DNA of 10,056 bases, taken from assembly GCA_026987055.1 (NCBI GenBank), contig JALSNL010000331.1:1-10056 (forward strand). Direction: 5' to 3'. The notes under the pieces were generated by a model. It saw only the letters and a program-made list of their open reading frames with translations. It was not told the DNA's origin and made no database searches. Below are positions 790 to 10,032 of the stretch, piece by piece. Source of the DNA: Melioribacteraceae bacterium (GTDB lineage: Bacteria; Bacteroidota; Ignavibacteria; Ignavibacteriales; Melioribacteraceae). Each line of letters opens with the position of its first letter. Within the stretch, counting starts at the first letter, position 1. The translations under genes and the position numbers were made by a program.

Positions 790-820
790 ACAAATGTGTC
801 TAAATAAAATTGACAAAATG
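787..820 (+). promoter_or_regulatory. Candidate operator: GACA-N4-TGTC dyad and a repeated TTGACAAATG element
   Basis: GACAAATGTGTC at 789-800 has perfect 4-base arms (GACA/TGTC) around a 4-base centre, a size common for XRE/Cro-type dimer operators. In addition TTGACAAATG (787-796) recurs as TTGACAAAATG (810-820), 23-24 bases on. The dyad overlaps the end of the possible promoter box and the expected transcription start, and the second repeat runs into the ATG at 818. This is where an autoregulating XRE repressor would bind. It is inferred from position and symmetry only. Confidence 0.3.
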
Positions 821-1096
821 GAATCATTTGGAAAATATATCCGACAACTAAGAGAGTCAAAAGGGTTACCGTTAAGAAAAGTTGCAGCTGCTTTGGATGT
901 TGATACTTCAATTTTAAGTAAAATTGAAAGAAATGAGAGAAGAGCAACAAGTGAAATGATTCCAATCCTCGCAAGAATTTTAGAAAAATCAGAAAAAGAT
1001 ATTGAAATACAATTTATAAAATCAGCTATTATTTCAGATTTAGGTGAACTTAATTATTTGAAAGATGGTCTAAAAGAAATATTGAAAATCTTATGA
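818..1096 (+). CDS. XRE-family HTH regulator, first gene of the operon
   Basis: A 92-residue protein (from the 818 start) that is almost entirely a Cro/CI-type helix-turn-helix: MESFGKYIRQLRESKGL is the first helix, PLRKVAAALDVD the scaffold helix, and TSILSKIERNERRA the recognition helix and following turn. A short helical tail (residues about 60-92) may serve dimerisation. An in-frame ATG at 794 would add eight residues, but family members normally begin close to the FGKYIRQLR segment and a possible -7 promoter box lies just before 794, so 818 is preferred. The stop overlaps the next start (ATGA, 1093-1096), coupling translation to the PLD-helicase. By analogy with controller proteins of restriction-modification loci it probably times expression of the operon and represses its own promoter. 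Its target is unproven. Confidence 0.88.
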   Translation: MESFGKYIRQLRESKGLPLRKVAAALDVDTSILSKIERNERRATSEMIPILARILEKSEKDIEIQFIKSAIISDLGELNYLKDGLKEILKIL

Positions 1097-4000
1097 GCAC
1101 TAAATTTTTCACAAACGAAGAAGAATACACTTTAATCAACAAAATTGAAGGAATATTCAAGCATAGAAATATTCACTTCTTTGATGCTTTGGTTGGATAT
1201 TTTCGTGCCTCTGGATATTTCAGAATTAGAAAATTTATTGAAAAAGCAGCTGAAATACGAATACTTGTCGGCATAAATGTAGATAACTTAATCAATGAAG
1301 CATCACAACAAGGACTACTTTTTGACCCCAATGCGGAACAAGTACAGAATGAATTTTTTAAAGAAGTAAAAAAAAGCATTCAGGAAGCTGAATATGATAA
1401 AGATGTTGAAGATGGTATGCTTCAATTAATTTCTGATATAGTTTCGGGAAAATTAAAAATAAGGATTCATCCTAAGCAAAATATTCACGCTAAAATTTAT
1501 ATTTTCAAAGAAAAAGAAAAACACGATCACGGTTATGGTTCTATAATCACAGGTTCTAGTAATTTAACAGATGCCGGACTTTCAAAGAATTTTGAATTTA
1601 ATGTAGAACTAAGAGATAATACCGATATAGAATTTGCTTCTGAAACTTTTAATAAACTTTGGGAAGAATCGGTACCCATTGACCAAGGATATATTGAAAA
1701 ATTAGAAAAAGAAACATATCTTAATGATACTTACAGTCCTTATGAGGTTTACTTGAAATTCTTAGTTGAATACTTTGGAAAAAGCATAGAATTTGATCCT
1801 AACTCAATAACTGATTTACCAAAAGGCTTCAAAAGACTATCATATCAGATAGATGCCGTTAACGATGGCTTTGCTAAGATGATGAAACACAATGGTTTTA
1901 TTTTGGCTGATGTTGTTGGGCTAGGAAAAACAGTTGTTGCAACAATTATTGCTAAAAAATATTTCTATTCGAATGGTTTCCCTTCGCATCGCTCACGTAC
2001 ATTGATTATTGTACCTCCGGCATTAAAAGAGAATTGGGCTGAAACTACGGATAAATTCAGATTAGATAACGTTAAAATTATCACAAATGGTAGCTTACAT
2101 AAAATCCGAGATCCTAGAAAGTATGATTTAATCATAGTTGATGAAGCGCATAAATTTCGTTCCGATACTGCAACAATGTATAATGAATTACAAAAAATAT
2201 GTAAGACACCAACACGTAGAGTTTTACCTAACGGTCAAGTAGTTCAAAAAAAGGTAATGCTTGTTTCGGCAACACCTTTAAATAATAAACCGGAAGATAT
2301 AGCAAACTTGGTTTATTTATTCCAAGACAGTAAAAATTCAACACTTGAAATTGGTAACTTACAACATTTTTTCAGAACTCAAATTGATACTTATAAAAAA
2401 CTAAAAAGCGAACCGGATATTAAAGTTGTTCAACAAGGTGTAAAACGCATCTACGAAAGAATAAGAACAAAGGTAATTGAACCACTTATTGTAAGAAGAA
2501 CCCGTACTGACTTAATGGCACACGATTTATATTCAAAAGATCTCGAAAAACAAGGGATTAAATTTCCAAAAGTTGGAGCACCAAAAAAAATACTTTATCA
2601 GCTGGAACCACACCTTGAAAAACTATATGATAAAACAATATTTATTTTAAGCCATCCGACACAAGGATTAACTTACAACAGGTATCAAGCTATTGCATAT
2701 TTAAAACCTCACAAAAAAGCAAAATATAAGCAAGCTGAAATGATATCCAGTCAATTGGCTAAAATTATGAAAACATTACTTGTTAAGAGAATTGACAGTA
2801 GTTTTTACGCTTTTAAAAAATCATTGCATCGCTTTATGATGGCAACAAAAGCAATGGTAACAATGTTTGAAAACGGAAAAATTTATATTGCACCGAATTT
2901 ACCTGTTTCAGATTTAATTAATGAAGGAAAAGAAGAAGAATTATTAGAATTGATAATTGAAAAATCAATTGAAGACCCAACAATTGATATTTGCGAACCG
3001 GATGATTTTGAATATGATTTTTTACCTGGTCTGAAAAATGATTATGAGTTGCTTAAATATCTAAACAAAGAATGGCAAAAAATTAATGATGATCCTAAAT
3101 TGGAAATGTTTGTTCATTATTTGAAAAATATACTTTTGAGGAAAAACATTAATCCTACATCTAAATTGGTGGTTTTCTCTGAAAGCAAAGAAACAACTGA
3201 ATATTTATATCGTGAACTGCCTAAACATATCGATGAAAAAATACTGATGGTTGACAGTAGTTCACGCAAAGAAAAAATGCCAATAATTAGAGCTAATTTT
3301 GACGCAAATATTCCAAAGTCTGAACAAAAAAATGATTTCAATATTGTTATTTCAACAGAAGTTTTAGCAGAAGGAATCAACCTACATAGGGCAAATGTGA
3401 TTGTTAATTATGATACACCTTGGAATTCTACTCGTTTAATGCAACGTATTGGTCGTGTAAACAGAATTGGTTCCGTAGCAAAAGAAGTACACGTTTATAA
3501 TTTTTATCCAACAGCAAAAGTTAATAATGATATTGAATTAGAGAAAAAAGCCATAATGAAATTACAGGCTTTCCACGCTGCACTAGGAGAAGATAGTCAA
3601 ATATATTCTCCGGATGAAGAAACCGAGTCCTTTGGACTTTTTGATCACGAATTGGAAGAAGAAAAAGACGAAAAATTGGCGTATCTAATGATGATTCGAG
3701 ATATTAAAGAAAAAGATCCTACATTTTTTAAACAGATAAAAAATATGCCTTTAAGGGCAAGAGTTGGAAGAAAAAATGGAGACTTAAATAATAGCACTAT
3801 CAGTTTTGTTAAAGATGCCAAAAGAGACGCATTCATTTATGTAAATTCAAAAAATGAAATAGAGGAACTTACTTTTTTGGAAGCTATAAAAAAATTTCAA
3901 GCAGATATAAACGAAAAAGCAATTCCGCTTCATTCAAAACATCACGAACAAGTAAAAACAGCAATAAAATTATTTTCTGACAAATTAGAGGAAGAAAAAG

Positions 4001-4356
4001 CCAAAGACAAAAAAGTAGATGTTACTCAGGGACCAAACGAAAAAAGAGCAATTGCTTATTTAGAAGCAATGATTAATTTACCCTTTACAAATGATGAAGA
4101 AACAGAATTAATAATTAAAGCAAAAGATGCAATTCGTAAAGGTAGATTTCAAAACTTGCAGCGTGATATTAACAAGCTAAAAAGAGCTGTTAGTAAGAGT
4201 TCTTTAAAACCCGTTATCATTTTGGAGAAAATAATGGAAATATTAAAAAGTTATCCATTAATCAATGAAGAAACTGATGAACTTGAACAAACAAAAATTG
4301 TTCATTCAAGAATATTAAATCCTGAGATTATTATTACAGAAAGTTTTAGCAAATAA
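1093..4356 (+). CDS. PLD (HKD)-SNF2 helicase fusion, candidate translocase-nuclease
   Basis: A 1087-residue protein with two recognisable parts. Residues about 20-200 form a phospholipase-D-like domain with one HKD-type motif: H132-A-K134, then G154-S-S-N157 and a conserved NFEFNVEL segment. One motif per chain usually means an active dimer, and this class is often a DNA nuclease. Residues about 245-830 are a SNF2/superfamily-2 motor: Walker A VGLGKT (275-280), DEAH box 350-353, SATPLNN (392-398), VVFSES (693-698), STEVLAEGINL (754-764) and QRIGRVNR (784-791). The two RecA-like lobes are separated by a lysine-rich helical segment (about 470-685). Residues about 850-1087 are charged and helical, with no family I can name. 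It overlaps the XRE stop by 4 bases and is followed after 6 bases by the methyltransferase. The fusion resembles DISARM DrmC plus DrmD in one chain, but that assignment is not established. All catalytic motifs look intact. Confidence 0.9.
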   Translation: MSTKFFTNEEEYTLINKIEGIFKHRNIHFFDALVGYFRASGYFRIRKFIEKAAEIRILVGINVDNLINEASQQGLLFDPNAEQVQNEFFKEVKKSIQEAEYDKDVEDGMLQLISDIVSGKLKIRIHPKQNIHAKIYIFKEKEKHDHGYGSIITGSSNLTDAGLSKNFEFNVELRDNTDIEFASETFNKLWEESVPIDQGYIEKLEKETYLNDTYSPYEVYLKFLVEYFGKSIEFDPNSITDLPKGFKRLSYQIDAVNDGFAKMMKHNGFILADVVGLGKTVVATIIAKKYFYSNGFPSHRSRTLIIVPPALKENWAETTDKFRLDNVKIITNGSLHKIRDPRKYDLIIVDEAHKFRSDTATMYNELQKICKTPTRRVLPNGQVVQKKVMLVSATPLNNKPEDIANLVYLFQDSKNSTLEIGNLQHFFRTQIDTYKKLKSEPDIKVVQQGVKRIYERIRTKVIEPLIVRRTRTDLMAHDLYSKDLEKQGIKFPKVGAPKKILYQLEPHLEKLYDKTIFILSHPTQGLTYNRYQAIAYLKPHKKAKYKQAEMISSQLAKIMKTLLVKRIDSSFYAFKKSLHRFMMATKAMVTMFENGKIYIAPNLPVSDLINEGKEEELLELIIEKSIEDPTIDICEPDDFEYDFLPGLKNDYELLKYLNKEWQKINDDPKLEMFVHYLKNILLRKNINPTSKLVVFSESKETTEYLYRELPKHIDEKILMVDSSSRKEKMPIIRANFDANIPKSEQKNDFNIVISTEVLAEGINLHRANVIVNYDTPWNSTRLMQRIGRVNRIGSVAKEVHVYNFYPTAKVNNDIELEKKAIMKLQAFHAALGEDSQIYSPDEETESFGLFDHELEEEKDEKLAYLMMIRDIKEKDPTFFKQIKNMPLRARVGRKNGDLNNSTISFVKDAKRDAFIYVNSKNEIEELTFLEAIKKFQADINEKAIPLHSKHHEQVKTAIKLFSDKLEEEKAKDKKVDVTQGPNEKRAIAYLEAMINLPFTNDEETELIIKAKDAIRKGRFQNLQRDINKLKRAVSKSSLKPVIILEKIMEILKSYPLINEETDELEQTKIVHSRILNPEIIITESFSK

Positions 4357-4362
4357 TTCATT

Positions 4363-7300
4363 ATGAAAGAAAAAGAACTAAAACATATTTTACAAAAAGA
4401 TTACAATTTCAATGAAAATTGGAAAACCATATTAAGTTTTCTTTTTAACAAAGTTGTTTATTTTTCCTCCCCTTCAAATCCATTTTTTGAAGAAGACAAA
4501 GTAAAATCAGGAAAACAGATAGGTGCCATAAAACTTGACGACAATAAATCGCTTGCTATTTTTGAAGTGGAAGTGGATGACAGCATCCGCATTGACCAAA
4601 ACCGAAAAGGATTAAGAGATATTGCCGCCAAACATATCGACCAGAATATTACACACGGAGCTTTGGTCTTTTTCTATTCCAAAAATCAAACTGATTACCG
4701 CTTTTCTTTCATTGCCAAATGGTCGGAAATTGATTTGGAAACCGGTGAATTTATCAAAGGCGAAACAAAACCTAAAAGATATACCTATTTGCTTGGGGGA
4801 AACGAATCGTGTACAACACCGGCAAAAAGAATTTTAGAGTTGGCTTCTAAGAAAGAAAAAGGCGAAAAAACCAGCTTACAAGATGTAATGGATGCTTTCG
4901 CTGTTGAACCATTGAAAAAAGACTTTTTCAAATCCTACAAAGATCACTACAATAAATTTTGGCAATACATTGCTGAAAACGAACAATACTGTCATATTCT
5001 TTTAGATACTTCCAAAGAGAAAATAGAGGAACAGCAAAAACCCATTAGAGATTTTGTAAAAAAATTGCTTGGTCGTATTGTTTTTCTACACTTTCTGCAA
5101 AAGAAAGGATGGATGGGCTGTCCCGCAAACACCAAAAAATGGGAAGGTGGCGAAAAACAATTTATGCAATTATTGTTTGATAATTTTGAGAACAAAGAAC
5201 GCTTTCATAGCCAATGTTTAACTAAGTTATTTTTCAATACGCTGAACACCCGGCGCGAAAACGATATTTTTGAAATCAAGGGATTAAACGGAAAGTTAAA
5301 CGGTTCCCGGGTGCCCTATTTAAATGGCGGACTGTTTGAAGCGGACAAACCAAAGGAGATTTTAAACGTTGATTTTCCCGTTAAATATTTTGAAGAACTC
5401 TTTGATTTTTTTGCGCAGTATAATTTTACCATTGACGAAAACAGTCCGGATGATCACGAAGTGGGAATTGACCCCGAAATGCTTGGACATATTTTTGAAA
5501 ACCTCTTGGAAGAAAACCGCGAGAAAGGTGCTTTTTATACGCCCAAAGAGATTGTGGAATATATGAGCAAGGAAAGTGTAATTCAATACTTGAAAAATCA
5601 TTTTCCCGAAGAAGCAAAAGTAGATGATTTTGTAAGAAATCATCAAGTATCTGAATATTTTACCGAAAGGGATAACGCCATTTTGCTAAACCAAAAAATT
5701 GATGCAATAAAAGTGTGTGATCCTGCCATTGGTTCGGGAGCTTTTCCTATTGGCATTTTACACGAACTTTTTGAAGCAAAAAAGTTTATTTATCCCTATT
5801 TGAAAACCAATAAGGAATTTAATCCTGCGAATGTTAAAAAAGACATTATCCAAAATTCCATTTATGGGGTGGATATTGAAAAAGGTGCGGTGGATATTGC
5901 CCAATTGCGATTTTGGCTGGCTTTGGTAGTGGACGAAACCGAACCCCAACCCTTGCCCAACCTGGATTATAAAATTATGCAGGGGAACAGTTTATTGGAG
6001 AGTTTTGAAGGTATTGATTTAAGCGAAACGGCTTTATTTGATGAACCAAAGGTTACCATTGTTCAGCAAAGTTTGTTTAAAGAGCCCAAGGCAGACTACG
6101 GTTTTACAGAAGAAAACAGAAAAGATATTAAACAGCTGATTAAAGATTATTTTAAAGTTGAAGATAAAGGCGAAAAGACCAGAATACACAAAGCCATTGA
6201 CAGGATTGTACGCGACCATATCGATAAATCCTTGGAGTTTTATGAGAACAAACTATTGATTGAAATAGAAACTTTTCAAGATAAACTGGACAAAAAACTG
6301 GAACGCCTAAACGACAAGCAACAAGCAATTTATCTATCCAAAAGCAAAGAAGTAAAAGAAATAGAAAAACGCAAAAAACACTTAGAAAACAAAACACAAG
6401 CAAGAGCAAAACTGTTGGAATTTGAAAAAACGGACGAACGCCCATACTTCCTTTGGCACTTGTATTTTATGGATGTATTTGAACAAGGCGGTTTTGATAT
6501 TATGATTGGTAATCCGCCTTATATTCAGTTGCAGAAAATGGGTAAGGATACCGATATTTTACAAGCCGAAAAATTTAAAACTTTTAAGCGTACAGGTGAT
6601 ATTTATACACTGTTTTACGAAAAAGGAATTAATCTCTTAAAACCCAACGAAGGTATTTTAACTTACATTACTTCAAACACTTGGATGCGTACAAAATTTG
6701 GTGAAGCCTTACGTAAATTTTTCATTGAATACTCAAATCCTATAAAACTGCTCAATTTTGAGGATACTAAAATATTCCCTTCCGCTACGGTAGAAGTAAA
6801 TATTATGCTTACTAAAAAAGAAGAATGGAATAATAATTTACAAGCCGTTGCCATTAAAGGCGATTATTTGCCCGGTATGTCAATCCACGACTACCTAAAC
6901 AAAAAGCAAATTGTTCTTACCGATTTAGATAAAGAAAGTTGGGTAATATTAGATAAAGAAGACTTTGAAATCAAAAAGTTTATTGAAACAAATGGTATAC
7001 AATTAAAAGAATGGAATGTTGAAATGAATTTTGCATTAAAATCAGGTTTCAATGATGCATTTTTCTTAGATGAAGAAACAAAAGACGAATTAATTAATAG
7101 TGATATTAACAGTAAGCATATCATAAAACCTTTACTGAGAGGAAGAAATATCAGAAAATATACTTATAGTTTTGACAATATTTATATCCTTTACATTCCG
7201 TGGCATTTCCCTCTACACAATGACCCAACTATTTCCGGTGCTTCTATAATTGCCGAGAAAGAATTTGAAAAACAGTATCCGGCAGTTTATAATCATATGT

Positions 7301-8013
7301 TACTATTTAAAGATAAATTATCTCAGCGAAATAAAGCTGAAACGGGTATAAGGTATGAATGGTACGCATTGCAAAGAGCTTCATCAACTTTTGCCCAGAA
7401 TTATGAAAAGGATAAAATTGTATGGTTAGCAATTACTGACAAACCAGCTTTTGCCTTTGATAATAAAAACCACTACGTAACATCCCCTTCGTATATAATG
7501 GTTTCTGATTTTCCAAAATATCACCTGGTTATGCTTAATTCAAAATTAGTTGAATGGTATTTAGACAAGGTTTCATCATCAACTGGGCAGGGCACAAATC
7601 AGTGGACTAAAATTTTTATGGATAAAATTCCCATTCCACAACTTGATAAAAAAGAGAGAAAACCATTTGAAATATTGGCAGATTATCTAACGCTAATCAA
7701 CGACCCTGAAAAACCGTATTTGTTTGAAAGCATATCAAACGAAATAGTTAGTCGTTTTTTTGAAGATGTACTTAATATGATGGTTTACGAGCTTTACTTT
7801 GAAGAGCATATGAAAGAACGAGAAATAGACGTTTTGCAGTTTGTAGATTTTCAACCCATTGATCATCTGGAAACCTTTGAAGAAAAGCGAGATGTAATTC
7901 AAAAAGAGTATTACAAATTGAAGGAGAAAGATAATCCTATTAGGAATAGAATATTGCTTGCCCCTGTAAAAAGTCCTGATATTATTAAACGTATCAATGA
8001 AAGTACACATTAA
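4363..8013 (+). CDS. Eco57I/TaqI-like gamma-class adenine-N6 DNA methyltransferase with N-terminal accessory domain
   Basis: A 1216-residue protein predicted to transfer a methyl group from S-adenosylmethionine to adenine N6 in DNA. Motif order is that of gamma-class enzymes: motif X GAFYTP (389-394), motif I CDPAIGSGAFP (452-462) and motif IV NPPY (717-720), followed by a long recognition part. A highly charged coiled coil (about 615-690) sits just before the NPPY motif. The end of the recognition part carries SSSTGQGTNQW (1071-1081) then IPIP, typical of TaqI-like specificity domains. Residues 1-180 form a separate alpha/beta domain: D59/D60, then SLAIFEVEV (63-71, acidic E68 and E70), R76 and NR (80-81). 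This resembles a PD-(D/E)XK-type core, but with E-x-E instead of E-x-K, so nuclease activity is doubtful. The size fits type IIG or PglX-like proteins. Base composition is patchy: GC-richer core, very AT-rich 6901-7200. Gaps of 6 and 3 bases join it to its neighbours. Confidence 0.92.
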   Translation: MKEKELKHILQKDYNFNENWKTILSFLFNKVVYFSSPSNPFFEEDKVKSGKQIGAIKLDDNKSLAIFEVEVDDSIRIDQNRKGLRDIAAKHIDQNITHGALVFFYSKNQTDYRFSFIAKWSEIDLETGEFIKGETKPKRYTYLLGGNESCTTPAKRILELASKKEKGEKTSLQDVMDAFAVEPLKKDFFKSYKDHYNKFWQYIAENEQYCHILLDTSKEKIEEQQKPIRDFVKKLLGRIVFLHFLQKKGWMGCPANTKKWEGGEKQFMQLLFDNFENKERFHSQCLTKLFFNTLNTRRENDIFEIKGLNGKLNGSRVPYLNGGLFEADKPKEILNVDFPVKYFEELFDFFAQYNFTIDENSPDDHEVGIDPEMLGHIFENLLEENREKGAFYTPKEIVEYMSKESVIQYLKNHFPEEAKVDDFVRNHQVSEYFTERDNAILLNQKIDAIKVCDPAIGSGAFPIGILHELFEAKKFIYPYLKTNKEFNPANVKKDIIQNSIYGVDIEKGAVDIAQLRFWLALVVDETEPQPLPNLDYKIMQGNSLLESFEGIDLSETALFDEPKVTIVQQSLFKEPKADYGFTEENRKDIKQLIKDYFKVEDKGEKTRIHKAIDRIVRDHIDKSLEFYENKLLIEIETFQDKLDKKLERLNDKQQAIYLSKSKEVKEIEKRKKHLENKTQARAKLLEFEKTDERPYFLWHLYFMDVFEQGGFDIMIGNPPYIQLQKMGKDTDILQAEKFKTFKRTGDIYTLFYEKGINLLKPNEGILTYITSNTWMRTKFGEALRKFFIEYSNPIKLLNFEDTKIFPSATVEVNIMLTKKEEWNNNLQAVAIKGDYLPGMSIHDYLNKKQIVLTDLDKESWVILDKEDFEIKKFIETNGIQLKEWNVEMNFALKSGFNDAFFLDEETKDELINSDINSKHIIKPLLRGRNIRKYTYSFDNIYILYIPWHFPLHNDPTISGASIIAEKEFEKQYPAVYNHMLLFKDKLSQRNKAETGIRYEWYALQRASSTFAQNYEKDKIVWLAITDKPAFAFDNKNHYVTSPSYIMVSDFPKYHLVMLNSKLVEWYLDKVSSSTGQGTNQWTKIFMDKIPIPQLDKKERKPFEILADYLTLINDPEKPYLFESISNEIVSRFFEDVLNMMVYELYFEEHMKEREIDVLQFVDFQPIDHLETFEEKRDVIQKEYYKLKEKDNPIRNRILLAPVKSPDIIKRINESTH

Positions 8014-8016
8014 AAT

Positions 8017-9579
8017 ATGAAGCTATGGGAATTACATATTAACAACTTTAAGTTTTTTACGGAAGTAGATAATGATAGCCCTTTGCTACAAATTAATGGA
8101 AATCATTTGCTTATTTATGGTGAAAACGGAAGCGGAAAATCTACTATTTATTGGGCTTTATATACCTTGCTCGAATCAAGCCTTAAAACAAATGATGATG
8201 ATATTCGGAAATATTTTAAGAAAACAGGAAATGATAGTTTGGTGAATATTCATTCAACCGGAAGAAGTAATTCTTTTGTCAAGGTTGTGTTAAAAGGTGA
8301 TGACGGCAATAACCCAAAAACATTTCGGGTTTCAAGAAAAAGCAAGGACTTATCCATTCGAGGGAATACTGATGTTATACAAAGCAGTATGGCAACCGAT
8401 TTTATCAACTATCGTGTTCTTTTTCAGTTACACAACCTAAAACACTCAAAAGATAACGACCTTTGGCTTTGGTTTGAAGAAGAAGTTTTGCCCTATGTAA
8501 AAAAAGATGGTAATCCGTGTTTAAATGAATTGTCTGAATTAAAAAGAGGACCGGAAAAAATAAGAAACCTACAAGGAGATGAAGTCTTTCCTACCGCTTC
8601 GTTAAGAACCGCAGCTACACCACAGGAAAGAAGAGATTATCAGAAATACAAAACATACAAACAAAAAGTAAAGGCTTGGAATGATTGGTTAAAAGGATTC
8701 CTTTCTGATATTGAAACCAAAGCAAATCTTTCGATTAAAAATGATTTTGGTTATAACTTCAAAATCAAAGTTGAATTAGAAACAAAATTTCCTGAGTTTA
8801 CAGCAACTGATGAAAAAATAAAATGGTTTAATCCAAAAATAATTATTTCCATCTCTGAATACGAGGGAATCCGGAATCCGAAAATTAAGAAACCGCATAC
8901 CTTTTTGAATGAGGCAAAATGGTCAGCCATTGGTCTTTCAATAAGGTTTGCCATACTTGATATCAAACTCTATACCGCCGATTTTAAGGCTTTGATTATT
9001 GATGATATGATAATTAGTCTTGATATGTCCAATAGGGAGGTTGTCATAAATCTTTTATTAAACAAATATGCAAATGATTATCAACTTATTATAATGACAC
9101 ACGACAGGTTCTTTTTTGAACTGGTTAAGTATAAGATTTCTCTATTAAGGTTAACAAACTGGAAATATTTTGAAATGTTTGAGGATGAAGAAAGTCCTAC
9201 CCCAAAACCGTTAATTATTGAAGAAACAAGTAAAATACAAAAGGCTTGGTCTTTATATCATCGTAAAGAATATAGCTTAGCTGCAAATACACTTAGAAAA
9301 GCAGTTGAAAAGTTATGCAAAGCATATTTAACGGCACAAGAAAGACTAAATACTAATTATAGTGTTAAGAATTTGCATCAAATGATTGAAGCATTTAGGA
9401 CAAAAGGTACAGCAAACGGATTGGATGCAAATAAGCTAACAAAGCTACTTGAATACAAAGACAGAATATTGAATCCAAATTCACATTATGATATTGAGAC
9501 ACCTTTGTTTAAGAATGAATTAAAGAAAGCGATAGAAACAGTTGAAGAATTAGCAAATGACACAGGAATTAATGTATAA
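8017..9579 (+). CDS. SMC/RecF-like ABC ATPase with HEPN-like C-terminal domain
   Basis: A 520-residue protein. The N-terminus (MKLWELHINNFKFF) and Walker A GENGSGKST (35-43) are typical of the SMC/RecF/Rad50-like ABC ATPases. The signature segment is degenerate, LNEAKWSAIGLSIRFA (297-312). Walker B is LIIDD (326-330), with aspartate where most ABC ATPases have catalytic glutamate; the D-loop is SLD (334-336) and the switch histidine is H362 in MTHD. The helical insert between the lobes is short (about 170-240), so no long SMC arm is present. From about 400 the protein becomes an all-helical domain with LAANTLRKAVEKLCKAYL and RILNPNSHYD, which contains R483-x6-H490. HEPN RNases carry R-x4-6-H, so a HEPN-like effector is plausible, although the residue after R is I rather than the usual polar one. 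It starts 3 bases after the methyltransferase stop and ends the operon. ATP-gated sensing or RNA cleavage is inference. Confidence 0.88.
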   Translation: MKLWELHINNFKFFTEVDNDSPLLQINGNHLLIYGENGSGKSTIYWALYTLLESSLKTNDDDIRKYFKKTGNDSLVNIHSTGRSNSFVKVVLKGDDGNNPKTFRVSRKSKDLSIRGNTDVIQSSMATDFINYRVLFQLHNLKHSKDNDLWLWFEEEVLPYVKKDGNPCLNELSELKRGPEKIRNLQGDEVFPTASLRTAATPQERRDYQKYKTYKQKVKAWNDWLKGFLSDIETKANLSIKNDFGYNFKIKVELETKFPEFTATDEKIKWFNPKIIISISEYEGIRNPKIKKPHTFLNEAKWSAIGLSIRFAILDIKLYTADFKALIIDDMIISLDMSNREVVINLLLNKYANDYQLIIMTHDRFFFELVKYKISLLRLTNWKYFEMFEDEESPTPKPLIIEETSKIQKAWSLYHRKEYSLAANTLRKAVEKLCKAYLTAQERLNTNYSVKNLHQMIEAFRTKGTANGLDANKLTKLLEYKDRILNPNSHYDIETPLFKNELKKAIETVEELANDTGINV

Positions 9580-9590
9580 AGCCATCCTTC

Positions 9591-9664
9591 GCATCCATAC
9601 ACATTGCCAACTCGCTAAAAAAAACCCACCGCACGAGCCAAAACTTGTCAAAGAGTATGGATGC
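9591..9664 (+). repeat. Dispersed intergenic repeat B, right copy, with 10-base bracketing inverted repeat
   Basis: The core at 9600-9654 aligns with the left copy at 688-737 in the same orientation (CACATT, CAA, CGC, AACC, CCAAAA, TTG, CAAA blocks in the same order). Its outer arms GCATCCATAC (9591-9600) and GTATGGATGC (9655-9664) are exact reverse complements with a 54-base loop, the left arm sharing one base with the start of the core. It lies only 11 bases after the ATPase stop. It could be a palindromic mobile or structural repeat, or act as a 3' structure on the operon transcript. Confidence 0.55.
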
Positions 9665-9850
9665 CCCAACGCAGTAAAAGATGCTAATAAAATTTGAAAT
9701 AATGAATGAAAGGAAAAAGTACGAAAGCACAACAAAAAATATAGTGCATTTGGCAGATAGTGCTAAAAATGAAGATGATAGCAATAAATAAACATAGTGC
9801 AAAACCGAAAAGTTGGAGCGTTGAAATGCCAAACGCACCATATTTAGAAC

Positions 9851-10032
9851 GTTCATTAAGATTTTTCGTTCTTAATGTTCTTAATGGTTAAATACTTCGT
9901 TTTCTTTTTTTATTGCGCTTTCATTAATTTTTTATCATTAAGTTCATTAAGATTTTGCGTTATTGATACTCTAATTATTAAATACTTATCTTTTATTTCT
10001 CAATTACGCTTTCGTTATTTTTTTGAAAATGA
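9851..10032 (+). repeat. Repeat A, right side: two diverged tandem units with a 91-base period
   Basis: Unit 1 begins at 9851 and unit 2 at 9942, both with GTTCATTAAGATTTT followed by CGTT or GCGTT. The ATTGCGCTTTC block at 9912-9922 and the ATTACGCTTTCG block at 10003-10014 are also exactly 91 bases apart, and TTAAATACTT recurs in both units. Unit 1 over 9858-9942 is the partner of the left copy at 527-611. The units are substantially diverged, so the duplication is old. No transposase, integrase or CRISPR-like spacer pattern accompanies them. Confidence 0.6.

Follow-up and report, generated by a model that had tools for sequence, protein, structure and literature searches.

A probable restriction-modification-like defence operon with an HKD-SNF2 helicase, an Eco57I-type methyltransferase and a Rad50-like ATPase, and the hairpin repeats that flank it in a Melioribacteraceae bacterium

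What kind of system is encoded by the four closely packed genes on a contig from a Melioribacteraceae bacterium, and is it one of the defence systems already named? The contig (C331, JALSNL010000331.1) was analysed as a whole (10,056 bases, G+C content 31 %; hereafter the window) and belongs to a genome assembly of 2.35 Mb that is 68.6 % complete. The original prediction, made from the DNA sequence of the window, described four plus-strand genes with junctions of -4, +6 and +3 bases and with all key motifs present. Both statements hold: the open reading frames (ORFs) lie at 818-1096, 1093-4356, 4363-8013 and 8017-9579, the HKD/helicase, methyltransferase and ATPase motifs are intact, and the Pfam families above cut-off are, in gene order, HTH_3; PLDc_2, SNF2-rel_dom and Helicase_C; Eco57I and TaqI_C; and AAA_23. 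The best explanation of the full operon is an ATP-dependent restriction-modification (R-M)-like defence system, which we consider probable. It builds on the gene order, the intact motifs, the linkage of the genes throughout the family and the divergence of the targeting part of the methyltransferase next to a conserved helicase.

The linkage was examined by searching the same 395 genomes of the host phylum with each protein (cut-offs E ≤ 1e-30 for the ATPase, E ≤ 1e-100 for the helicase and E ≤ 1e-60 for the methyltransferase). Matches were found in 9 (own genome included), 29 and 33 genomes, respectively, and a class-level search of 391 partly overlapping genomes added one genome with the ATPase (G408). 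The neighbourhoods of the 28 other helicase and nine other ATPase matches were annotated by BLASTP against the window proteins. The methyltransferase lies downstream of the helicase and on the same strand in 27 of the 28 helicase loci, sometimes with one or two genes between them; at the remaining locus (L080) the contig stops about 220 bases past the helicase. The ATPase comes after the methyltransferase in all nine clear relatives, directly so except for a 101-amino-acid ORF between them in L031, and a relative of the SNF2 protein is present upstream on the same contig in seven of these nine, the other two contigs starting inside the methyltransferase gene. The upstream SNF2 relatives of L029 and L085 are just 24-26 % identical. 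Seen from the helicase, the ATPase follows the methyltransferase in only 8 of the 28 loci (L025, L026, L027, L028, L031, L069, L077 and L079, in the last as two ORFs). Two further loci with core and ATPase have probably been split by assembly: in G046, residues 6-317 of the methyltransferase are at the end of contig C10 and residues 314-1214 on C23, and in G213 the helicase is at the end of a separate contig (L080). Core and ATPase also occur together in named records of Splendidivirga corallicola (L017), a Chitinophagaceae metagenome-assembled genome (MAG; L018), a Taibaiella MAG (L019) and a Bacteroidales MAG (L016). The contig scan comprised nine loci, three of which were left unannotated, namely two from Treponema with a helicase stretch only (L022, L023) and a fragment (L021); L020 holds a helicase fragment only.

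Because the methyltransferase is found at 27 of the 28 helicase loci but the ATPase at eight, the conserved unit is a two-gene core of PLD-SNF2 helicase and methyltransferase, with the ATPase as an optional addition. The co-occurrence of the proteins across genomes thus stands for the core and only partly for the ATPase (8 of 28 loci plus the two probable splits). Likewise, the original prediction of a compact R-M-like system with one modification protein, one translocase-nuclease and one ATPase-linked effector can be kept as far as "R-M-like" and "compact" are concerned; the four genes are not equal parts of the unit, and the "ATPase-linked effector" is still conjecture, as the catalytic motif in the tail of this protein is not conserved. 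That prediction did not bring out the close parallel to known systems of HKD-SNF2 and N6-methyltransferase, the apparent exchange of the targeting half of the methyltransferase or the occurrence of the flanking hairpin beside other defence operons.

The methyltransferase (4363-8013, plus strand; 1216 amino acids) is an N6-adenine enzyme of the Eco57I type with a TaqI_C targeting domain (Eco57I E 1.1e-36, TaqI_C E 3e-14). It carries DPAIGSG at residue 453 and NPPY at residue 717, and motif IV (NPPY or NPPF) is present in all 36 aligned methyltransferases, that of the window included. M.BseCI and M.TaqI are its relatives of solved structure; a Foldseek search with the N-terminus returned only unrelated dehydrogenases with low template-modelling scores, which were discarded. 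A separate HsdS is lacking, as had been foreseen, and the TaqI_C domain sits in the variable C-terminal part of the methyltransferase itself. In a comparison of the window with L015 the helicases are 87 % identical, while the methyltransferases share 69-91 % per 100 residues over residues 1-600 and 25-41 % over residues 601-1200 (the L015 enzyme runs off its contig near its end). With L017 the corresponding figures are 77 % for the helicase and, for the methyltransferase, 57-81 % over residues 1-800 and 22-36 % over residues 801-1100. A similar C-terminal drop is seen against L017, L018, L019, L025 and L026, the exception being L016, where it is limited to residues 901-1000 (30 %).

Four relatives (L004, L065, L066 and L072) have inverted repeats, 18 to 314 nucleotides long, among which are pairs that link the methyltransferase gene to sequence behind it. 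The repeat arms are 314 nucleotides (95 % identity) and 29 nucleotides (100 %) long in L072, 30 nucleotides (93 %) in L065, 47 nucleotides (96 %, at motif IV) in L004 and 128 nucleotides (74 %) in L066. Behind the methyltransferase gene a piece of methyltransferase was recognised on the opposite strand in L004 and L072; BLASTP recognised none in L065 and L066. One protein family (mean identity 68 %) adjoins the inverted repeats in all four loci, and its member in L004 is annotated as an Mpi-type (serine) DNA invertase. The combination of inverted repeats and an invertase-family gene likely indicates phase-variable specificity in these four relatives; the window itself is without such a gene. 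Judged from these sequences, the operon class is most likely a restriction system in which the specificity part of the methyltransferase is exchangeable. A specificity part that diverges, and in some relatives apparently inverts, makes the target recognition of the class testable.

The presence of a recognition domain (TaqI_C) and a methyltransferase in one chain is a feature shared with the Type IIG (Eco57I-like) enzymes. A rival explanation is that the protein is such an enzyme with accessories, cutting alone through its own N-terminal PD-(D/E)XK nuclease with the helicase as a helper. The PD-(D/E)XK motif is present in 9 of the 36 aligned methyltransferases and absent in that of the window, and fold matches of the N-terminal part are weak. 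In contrast to Type IIG, a nuclease site is not consistently preserved at the N-terminus here, and the predicted nuclease is separate and ATP-driven. We regard the Type IIG-like explanation as distinctly unlikely.

The genes that adjoin the core in relatives are of defence type and can be located before the helicase, between helicase and methyltransferase or after the methyltransferase. They include the DUF1016/YhcG nuclease family, represented by six proteins at five loci (two of them checked with Pfam), the Schlafen AlbA_2 family, with four proteins at as many loci (again two checked), and DUF3800 (L078). A KAP nucleoside triphosphatase (NTPase) like PifA occupies the place of the ATPase in L061 and L062, both checked with Pfam. 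As these accessory genes vary among relatives, the core looks like a platform for different effectors. The Rad50/RecF-type head of the ATPase would also suit a mobile operon for DNA repair or regulatory methylation with no part in defence, but the distribution is patchy (helicase in 29 of 395 genomes), the targeting part of the methyltransferase diverges and defence-type neighbours are swapped among relatives, so that we consider a non-defence function hardly credible.

The helicase gene (1093-4356, plus strand) encodes an HKD/PLD nuclease fused to an SNF2 translocase of 1087 amino acids (PLDc_2, SNF2-rel_dom and Helicase_C). The HKD domain has HAK at residue 132 and GSSN at residue 154, and the helicase motifs are GLGKT (276), DEAH (350), SATP (392) and QRIGRVNR (784). 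HxK and GSSN are kept in all 37 aligned helicases, including that of the window. The best PADLOC model, C3a139 ("HKD+Snf2"; E 1.2e-43, 147.6 bits, 948-residue profile), is a distant match, and its name was not found in our literature search, which here and below covered open-licence papers.

For the ATP-dependent R-M-like system, we infer a mechanism in which the TaqI_C-type domain at the C-terminus of the methyltransferase would read a DNA motif, and the host would be marked by N6-adenine methylation. The HKD-SNF2 protein, targeted by the partner methyltransferase with which it presumably forms a complex, would engage unmethylated sites and move along the DNA, which the HKD nuclease would cut; phage resistance would be the expected outcome. 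The XRE protein may time expression through a dyad before its start, and the Rad50-like ATPase could be an optional component with affinity for DNA or DNA ends, which would either reinforce restriction or serve as a reserve effector. Several points weigh against this explanation. Between 18 and 20 of the 28 core loci have no ATPase. The methyltransferase family also occurs without helicase, a SNF2 match at 1e-100 being missing from 10 of the 33 genomes with the methyltransferase (in G334 a more distant SNF2 gene adjoins it), so the methyltransferase might act alone. Finally, the HKD nuclease could instead depend on DNA modification in the manner of a type IV enzyme.

The ATPase (8017-9579, plus strand; 520 amino acids) is of the Rad50/SMC/RecF type of ABC ATPases, as indicated by AAA_23, the fold of the head and its motifs, GENGSGKS (35), LIIDD (326), SLD (334) and THD (361). 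In the predicted model the head is a Rad50/SMC-type ABC fold with Walker A, Walker B and D loop. It has a short insert, consisting of about 42 residues of long helix only, and a helical C-terminal tail (406-520). A CxC or CxxC hook was found in none of 33 ATPases. The relatives come in a short form of 516-536 amino acids and a long form of about 600-650 amino acids; the heads are similar, and the long form has an extra C-terminal domain. PrrC/RloC-type proteins are R-M-linked ATPase-HEPN effectors. The ATPase of the window resembles them in that an ABC head is followed by a helical tail that may be HEPN-like and that its gene adjoins an R-M core, and residues 325-493 align to AAA_13 (E 2.8e-7), a family that includes PrrC/RloC-type proteins; it differs from them in that the catalytic motif is not conserved and no tRNA target is known. 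The "HEPN-like tail" of the original prediction is weakly supported by the sequence: residues 407-513 match PF05168 HEPN (E 1.1e-3) and the tail matches DUF4145 (E 9.7e-4), both below the cut-offs, and at E ≤ 0.01 these families are matched by two and four of the 33 ATPases, respectively. Of the short-form proteins, 12 of 23 have the arginine of the Rx6H motif, R483, and of the long-form proteins none of 10 (12 of 33 overall), and this lack of conservation of the catalytic residue counts against the HEPN part of the claim, despite H490 in all 33. The same data bear on a type IV-like or abortive explanation, in which the HKD-SNF2 protein attacks modified phage DNA, or an RNase in the ATPase tail kills the infected cell, and the methyltransferase mainly supplies the mark that is protected or sensed. 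The matches to HEPN and AAA_13 are in favour of it, whereas the erratic occurrence of R483 and the absence of the ATPase from most core loci are not, and we hold it to be unlikely. HEPN-ATPase fusions located beside R-M genes, in the same operons, have been described and proposed to act like PrrC (PMC3710099).

Is the operon, then, a variant of a named system? No scan of PADLOC, Pfam or NCBIfam (PHROGs were not among the profile sets) assigned all four proteins to one such system, and the view that the operon is not a fragment of DISARM or BREX was confirmed. DISARM class 1 has in common with it an adenine methyltransferase and an SNF2 helicase, DrmD, which the helicase resembles (PADLOC E 2.4e-39). 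The helicase is below the NCBIfam cut-offs for DrmD, however (159.9 bits versus 610 and 80.6 versus 950), and the window differs in the absence of DrmA, DrmB and a separate PLD protein, PLD being fused to the helicase. Among the ORFs of at least 60 amino acids there is no room for DrmA or DrmB on the contig, and the sole DrmA match listed is to the helicase core. With respect to BREX, the methyltransferase reaches 59.6 bits against a PglX cut-off of 400 (BREX-2) and 56.8 against 900 (BREX-6). No further large ORF is present on the contig for PglZ or BrxC, and neither is among the best 25 PADLOC matches of 42, 36 and 26 for the three large proteins. Two other candidates were rejected: Hma, since the HmaA match (E 2.6e-29) is weaker than those to C3a139 and DrmD and DUF499 is lacking, and MADS, with a weak match of the ATPase to mad3 (E 2.5e-10) and the other MADS genes presumably lacking from the operon.

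The closest relation is with the DUF499-centred systems, of which type 2 (BR) combines an HKD-SNF2 helicase and an N6-methyltransferase with a DUF499 ATPase and DUF3780 (PMC12839542, 2026). In both cases an HKD domain N-terminal on an SNF2 helicase, an N6-adenine methyltransferase and an ATPase are encoded in one operon, and the same logic is proposed; the difference is the ATPase, which here is of the Rad50/SMC type. DUF499 has no match in this ATPase and was found in none of the seven operon-carrying genomes (a control was positive in 1 of 14); DUF3780 was likewise found in none of the seven, in a search whose control was also silent. The CxC ABC-ATPase-DndE (PbeABCD) systems include an HKD-SF2 helicase, a coiled-coil type ABC ATPase and, in some cases, a methylase (PMC10853773). 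The operon studied here differs from them by the lack of the CxC/CxxC hook, the insert helix of about 42 residues and an adenine instead of a cytosine methyltransferase. DndE is not a name among the PADLOC matches listed for five proteins, no search having been aimed at it. The combination of PLD-SNF2 helicase, N6-methyltransferase and SMC-type ATPase was not found described in the literature search. On sequence grounds, the operon is most likely a recognisable R-M-like kind of defence in which the ATPase partner is new and the specificity part can be exchanged; the Rad50/SMC-like protein would be a further kind of ATPase for HKD-SNF2 and N6-methyltransferase restriction systems, optional and replaceable.

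The first gene (818-1096, plus strand) encodes an XRE-type helix-turn-helix protein (HTH_3 E 2.3e-10), the probable controller of the operon; a 67 % identical relative is located directly before the same operon in L031 (genome G303), where the SNF2 protein is just 37 % identical. A dyad, GACAAATGTGTC, at 789-800, which is the only GACAnnnnTGTC in the window, has a counterpart, GACAAATATGTC, in the corresponding position ahead of the XRE gene of L031. An alternative in-frame ATG at 794 falls within this conserved dyad, which makes 818 the likelier start. Operators of R-M controller proteins resemble such a dyad before the start of the gene, and by analogy this one is likely to be the XRE operator through which the operon would be regulated.

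The original prediction also noted intergenic repeats on both sides of the operon, and these are indeed present. Upstream, at 674-758 on the plus strand, is a hairpin with an outer stem, an inner stem (ATTTGCAATT/AATTGCAAA) and a conserved loop (fold of 676-752, z-score -2.06; local alignment score 68 against a shuffle maximum of 33; 82.6 bits in a covariance model of which it is a training member). A diverged copy in the same orientation lies downstream at 9586-9675 (fold of 9580-9680, z-score -2.80; score 52 against a shuffle maximum of 34; 62.7 bits, also a training member). An outer, AT-rich direct repeat surrounds this pair, its plus-strand copies at 524-613 and 9855-9944 being 74 % identical over 92 columns (E 2e-10), and 9851-9933 is repeated at 9942-10024 (71 %). 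Neither the window nor seven hairpin-bearing loci had an Rfam match at the gathering threshold, and no description of the hairpin was found in the literature. A dispersed repeat was considered and rejected: the host genome has a single occurrence of the strict hairpin pattern, and what a loose pattern matched was mostly unrelated.

Scanning 18 loci by local alignment detected 28 hairpin copies at a score of at least 38, against none in reversed sequences. Of these, 23 were aligned, a choice that favours clean structure; left out were the downstream copies of L031 and L110, which have diverged, and three spurious-looking ones (L104, L106). The RNAalifold structure pairs 92.4 % of the cells, and 13 of its 17 pairs have changed on both sides. 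There are 76 double and 3 single changes, counts that are inflated by related copies and that none of 500 shuffles reached (pair types, 21 of 500); when the partner is shifted by one to three columns, pairing falls to 28-41 %. The scarcity of G-T intermediates suggests that pairing takes place in DNA rather than RNA.

The same hairpin pair surrounds the operon of L031. BLASTN with the element gave matches in a Persicobacter and a Flammeovirga plasmid, each with two copies in the same orientation that bracket one operon. In Persicobacter this is SngA-SngB-SngC, the Shango system (the first ORF has been predicted over-long, and its start runs into the upstream copy); the cargo in Flammeovirga consists of a repressor, an isoprenylcysteine methyltransferase and a cation transporter, with no PADLOC match for the two proteins tested. 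A 24-base hairpin pattern with up to two mismatches was found at 18 places in 16 of the 395 genomes, and its reversed control nowhere; up to 20 kb was fetched from 14 of these genomes (the host and G303 being left aside). Eleven of the 14 loci gave copies of sufficient quality for the model (L100, L104 and L106 did not). Applied to 59 sources (1.07 Mb), the covariance model of 23 copies had 30 matches at E ≤ 0.1; 23 of these were the training copies and seven were new, one of the latter directly before the PLD-SNF2 gene of L064. As only three of the 43 sources with the R-M core carry the hairpin (the window, L031 and L064), it is not a fixed part of the R-M system.

Adjacent copies have the same orientation in all 13 intervals, and all listed ORFs run with them in 10 of the 13; L101 is mixed and L105 opposite. 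In L107 a single ORF of 1980 amino acids runs with the copies, its predicted start overlapping one of them. Directly oriented hairpins are present on both sides of single operons in the window, L031, L086, L087, L098, L099, L101, L102, L103, L107 and L110; these loci come from unrelated Bacteroidota, and many of the operons are defence systems. PADLOC matches were obtained within the interval or immediately ahead of a copy in 9 of 11 loci (L098, L101, L102, L103, L107, L108, L109, L110 and L111), comprising type I R-M twice, type I-like, mza, Mko-like with DarG, Hhe-like, methyltransferase with capP, and single genes twice; L099 gave none for three proteins tested, and the one protein tested in L105 had a weak match named desaturase only. 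This enrichment for defence is suggestive only, because the tested proteins were chosen by hand, a random-locus control was not included and the PADLOC methylase and "PDC" models are broad. L086, L103, L107 and L110 belong to four different genomes and carry four different defence cargoes; outside the hairpins they have in common a left end of about 190 nucleotides and a right end of about 140 nucleotides, and the outermost ends are inverted and matching (for example GTTGTATGC / GCATACAAC).

A role for the hairpin as terminator or protein-binding site is possible, but bracketing by direct repeats and the shared ends favour a recombination site. We tentatively propose, with somewhat less than even confidence, that the hairpins are the boundary sites at which an as yet undescribed mobilisation system of Bacteroidota transfers entire operons as cassettes (intervals of 2 to 10 kb), most of them serving defence. 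Integron cassettes have GTTRRRY/RYYYAAC boxes; none were seen by eye in the hairpin copies of the window, and box-like ends are located outside the hairpin copies in L086, L103, L107 and L110. Among ten ORFs next to hairpins, Pfam recognised no recombinase, and the hairpin was found neither in viral contigs (one exact pattern) nor in phage records (BLASTN). The hairpin, with its putative role in recombination, is more surprising than the operon itself; if the hairpins are recombination sites, they offer a sequence handle for finding known and unknown defence operons of Bacteroidota without knowledge of their proteins.

Some further observations concern the surroundings of these elements. On plasmid p2 of Flammeovirga kamogawensis (L087), four 87-nucleotide attC-like integron repeats (GCCTAAC...GTTAGGC in one of them) are found at 5667-7681, near the hairpin and distinct from it. 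A SMODS nucleotidyltransferase (CBASS-type) gene is located at 10047-10820 in L110, just outside the hairpin-bracketed mza-like operon. In the window itself, the contig begins within a HigB-type toxin gene, followed by HigA (131-490) and then by the four-gene operon; HigB end and HigA together cover 1-490, and HigA matches PADLOC PD-Lambda-2_B (E 5e-46).

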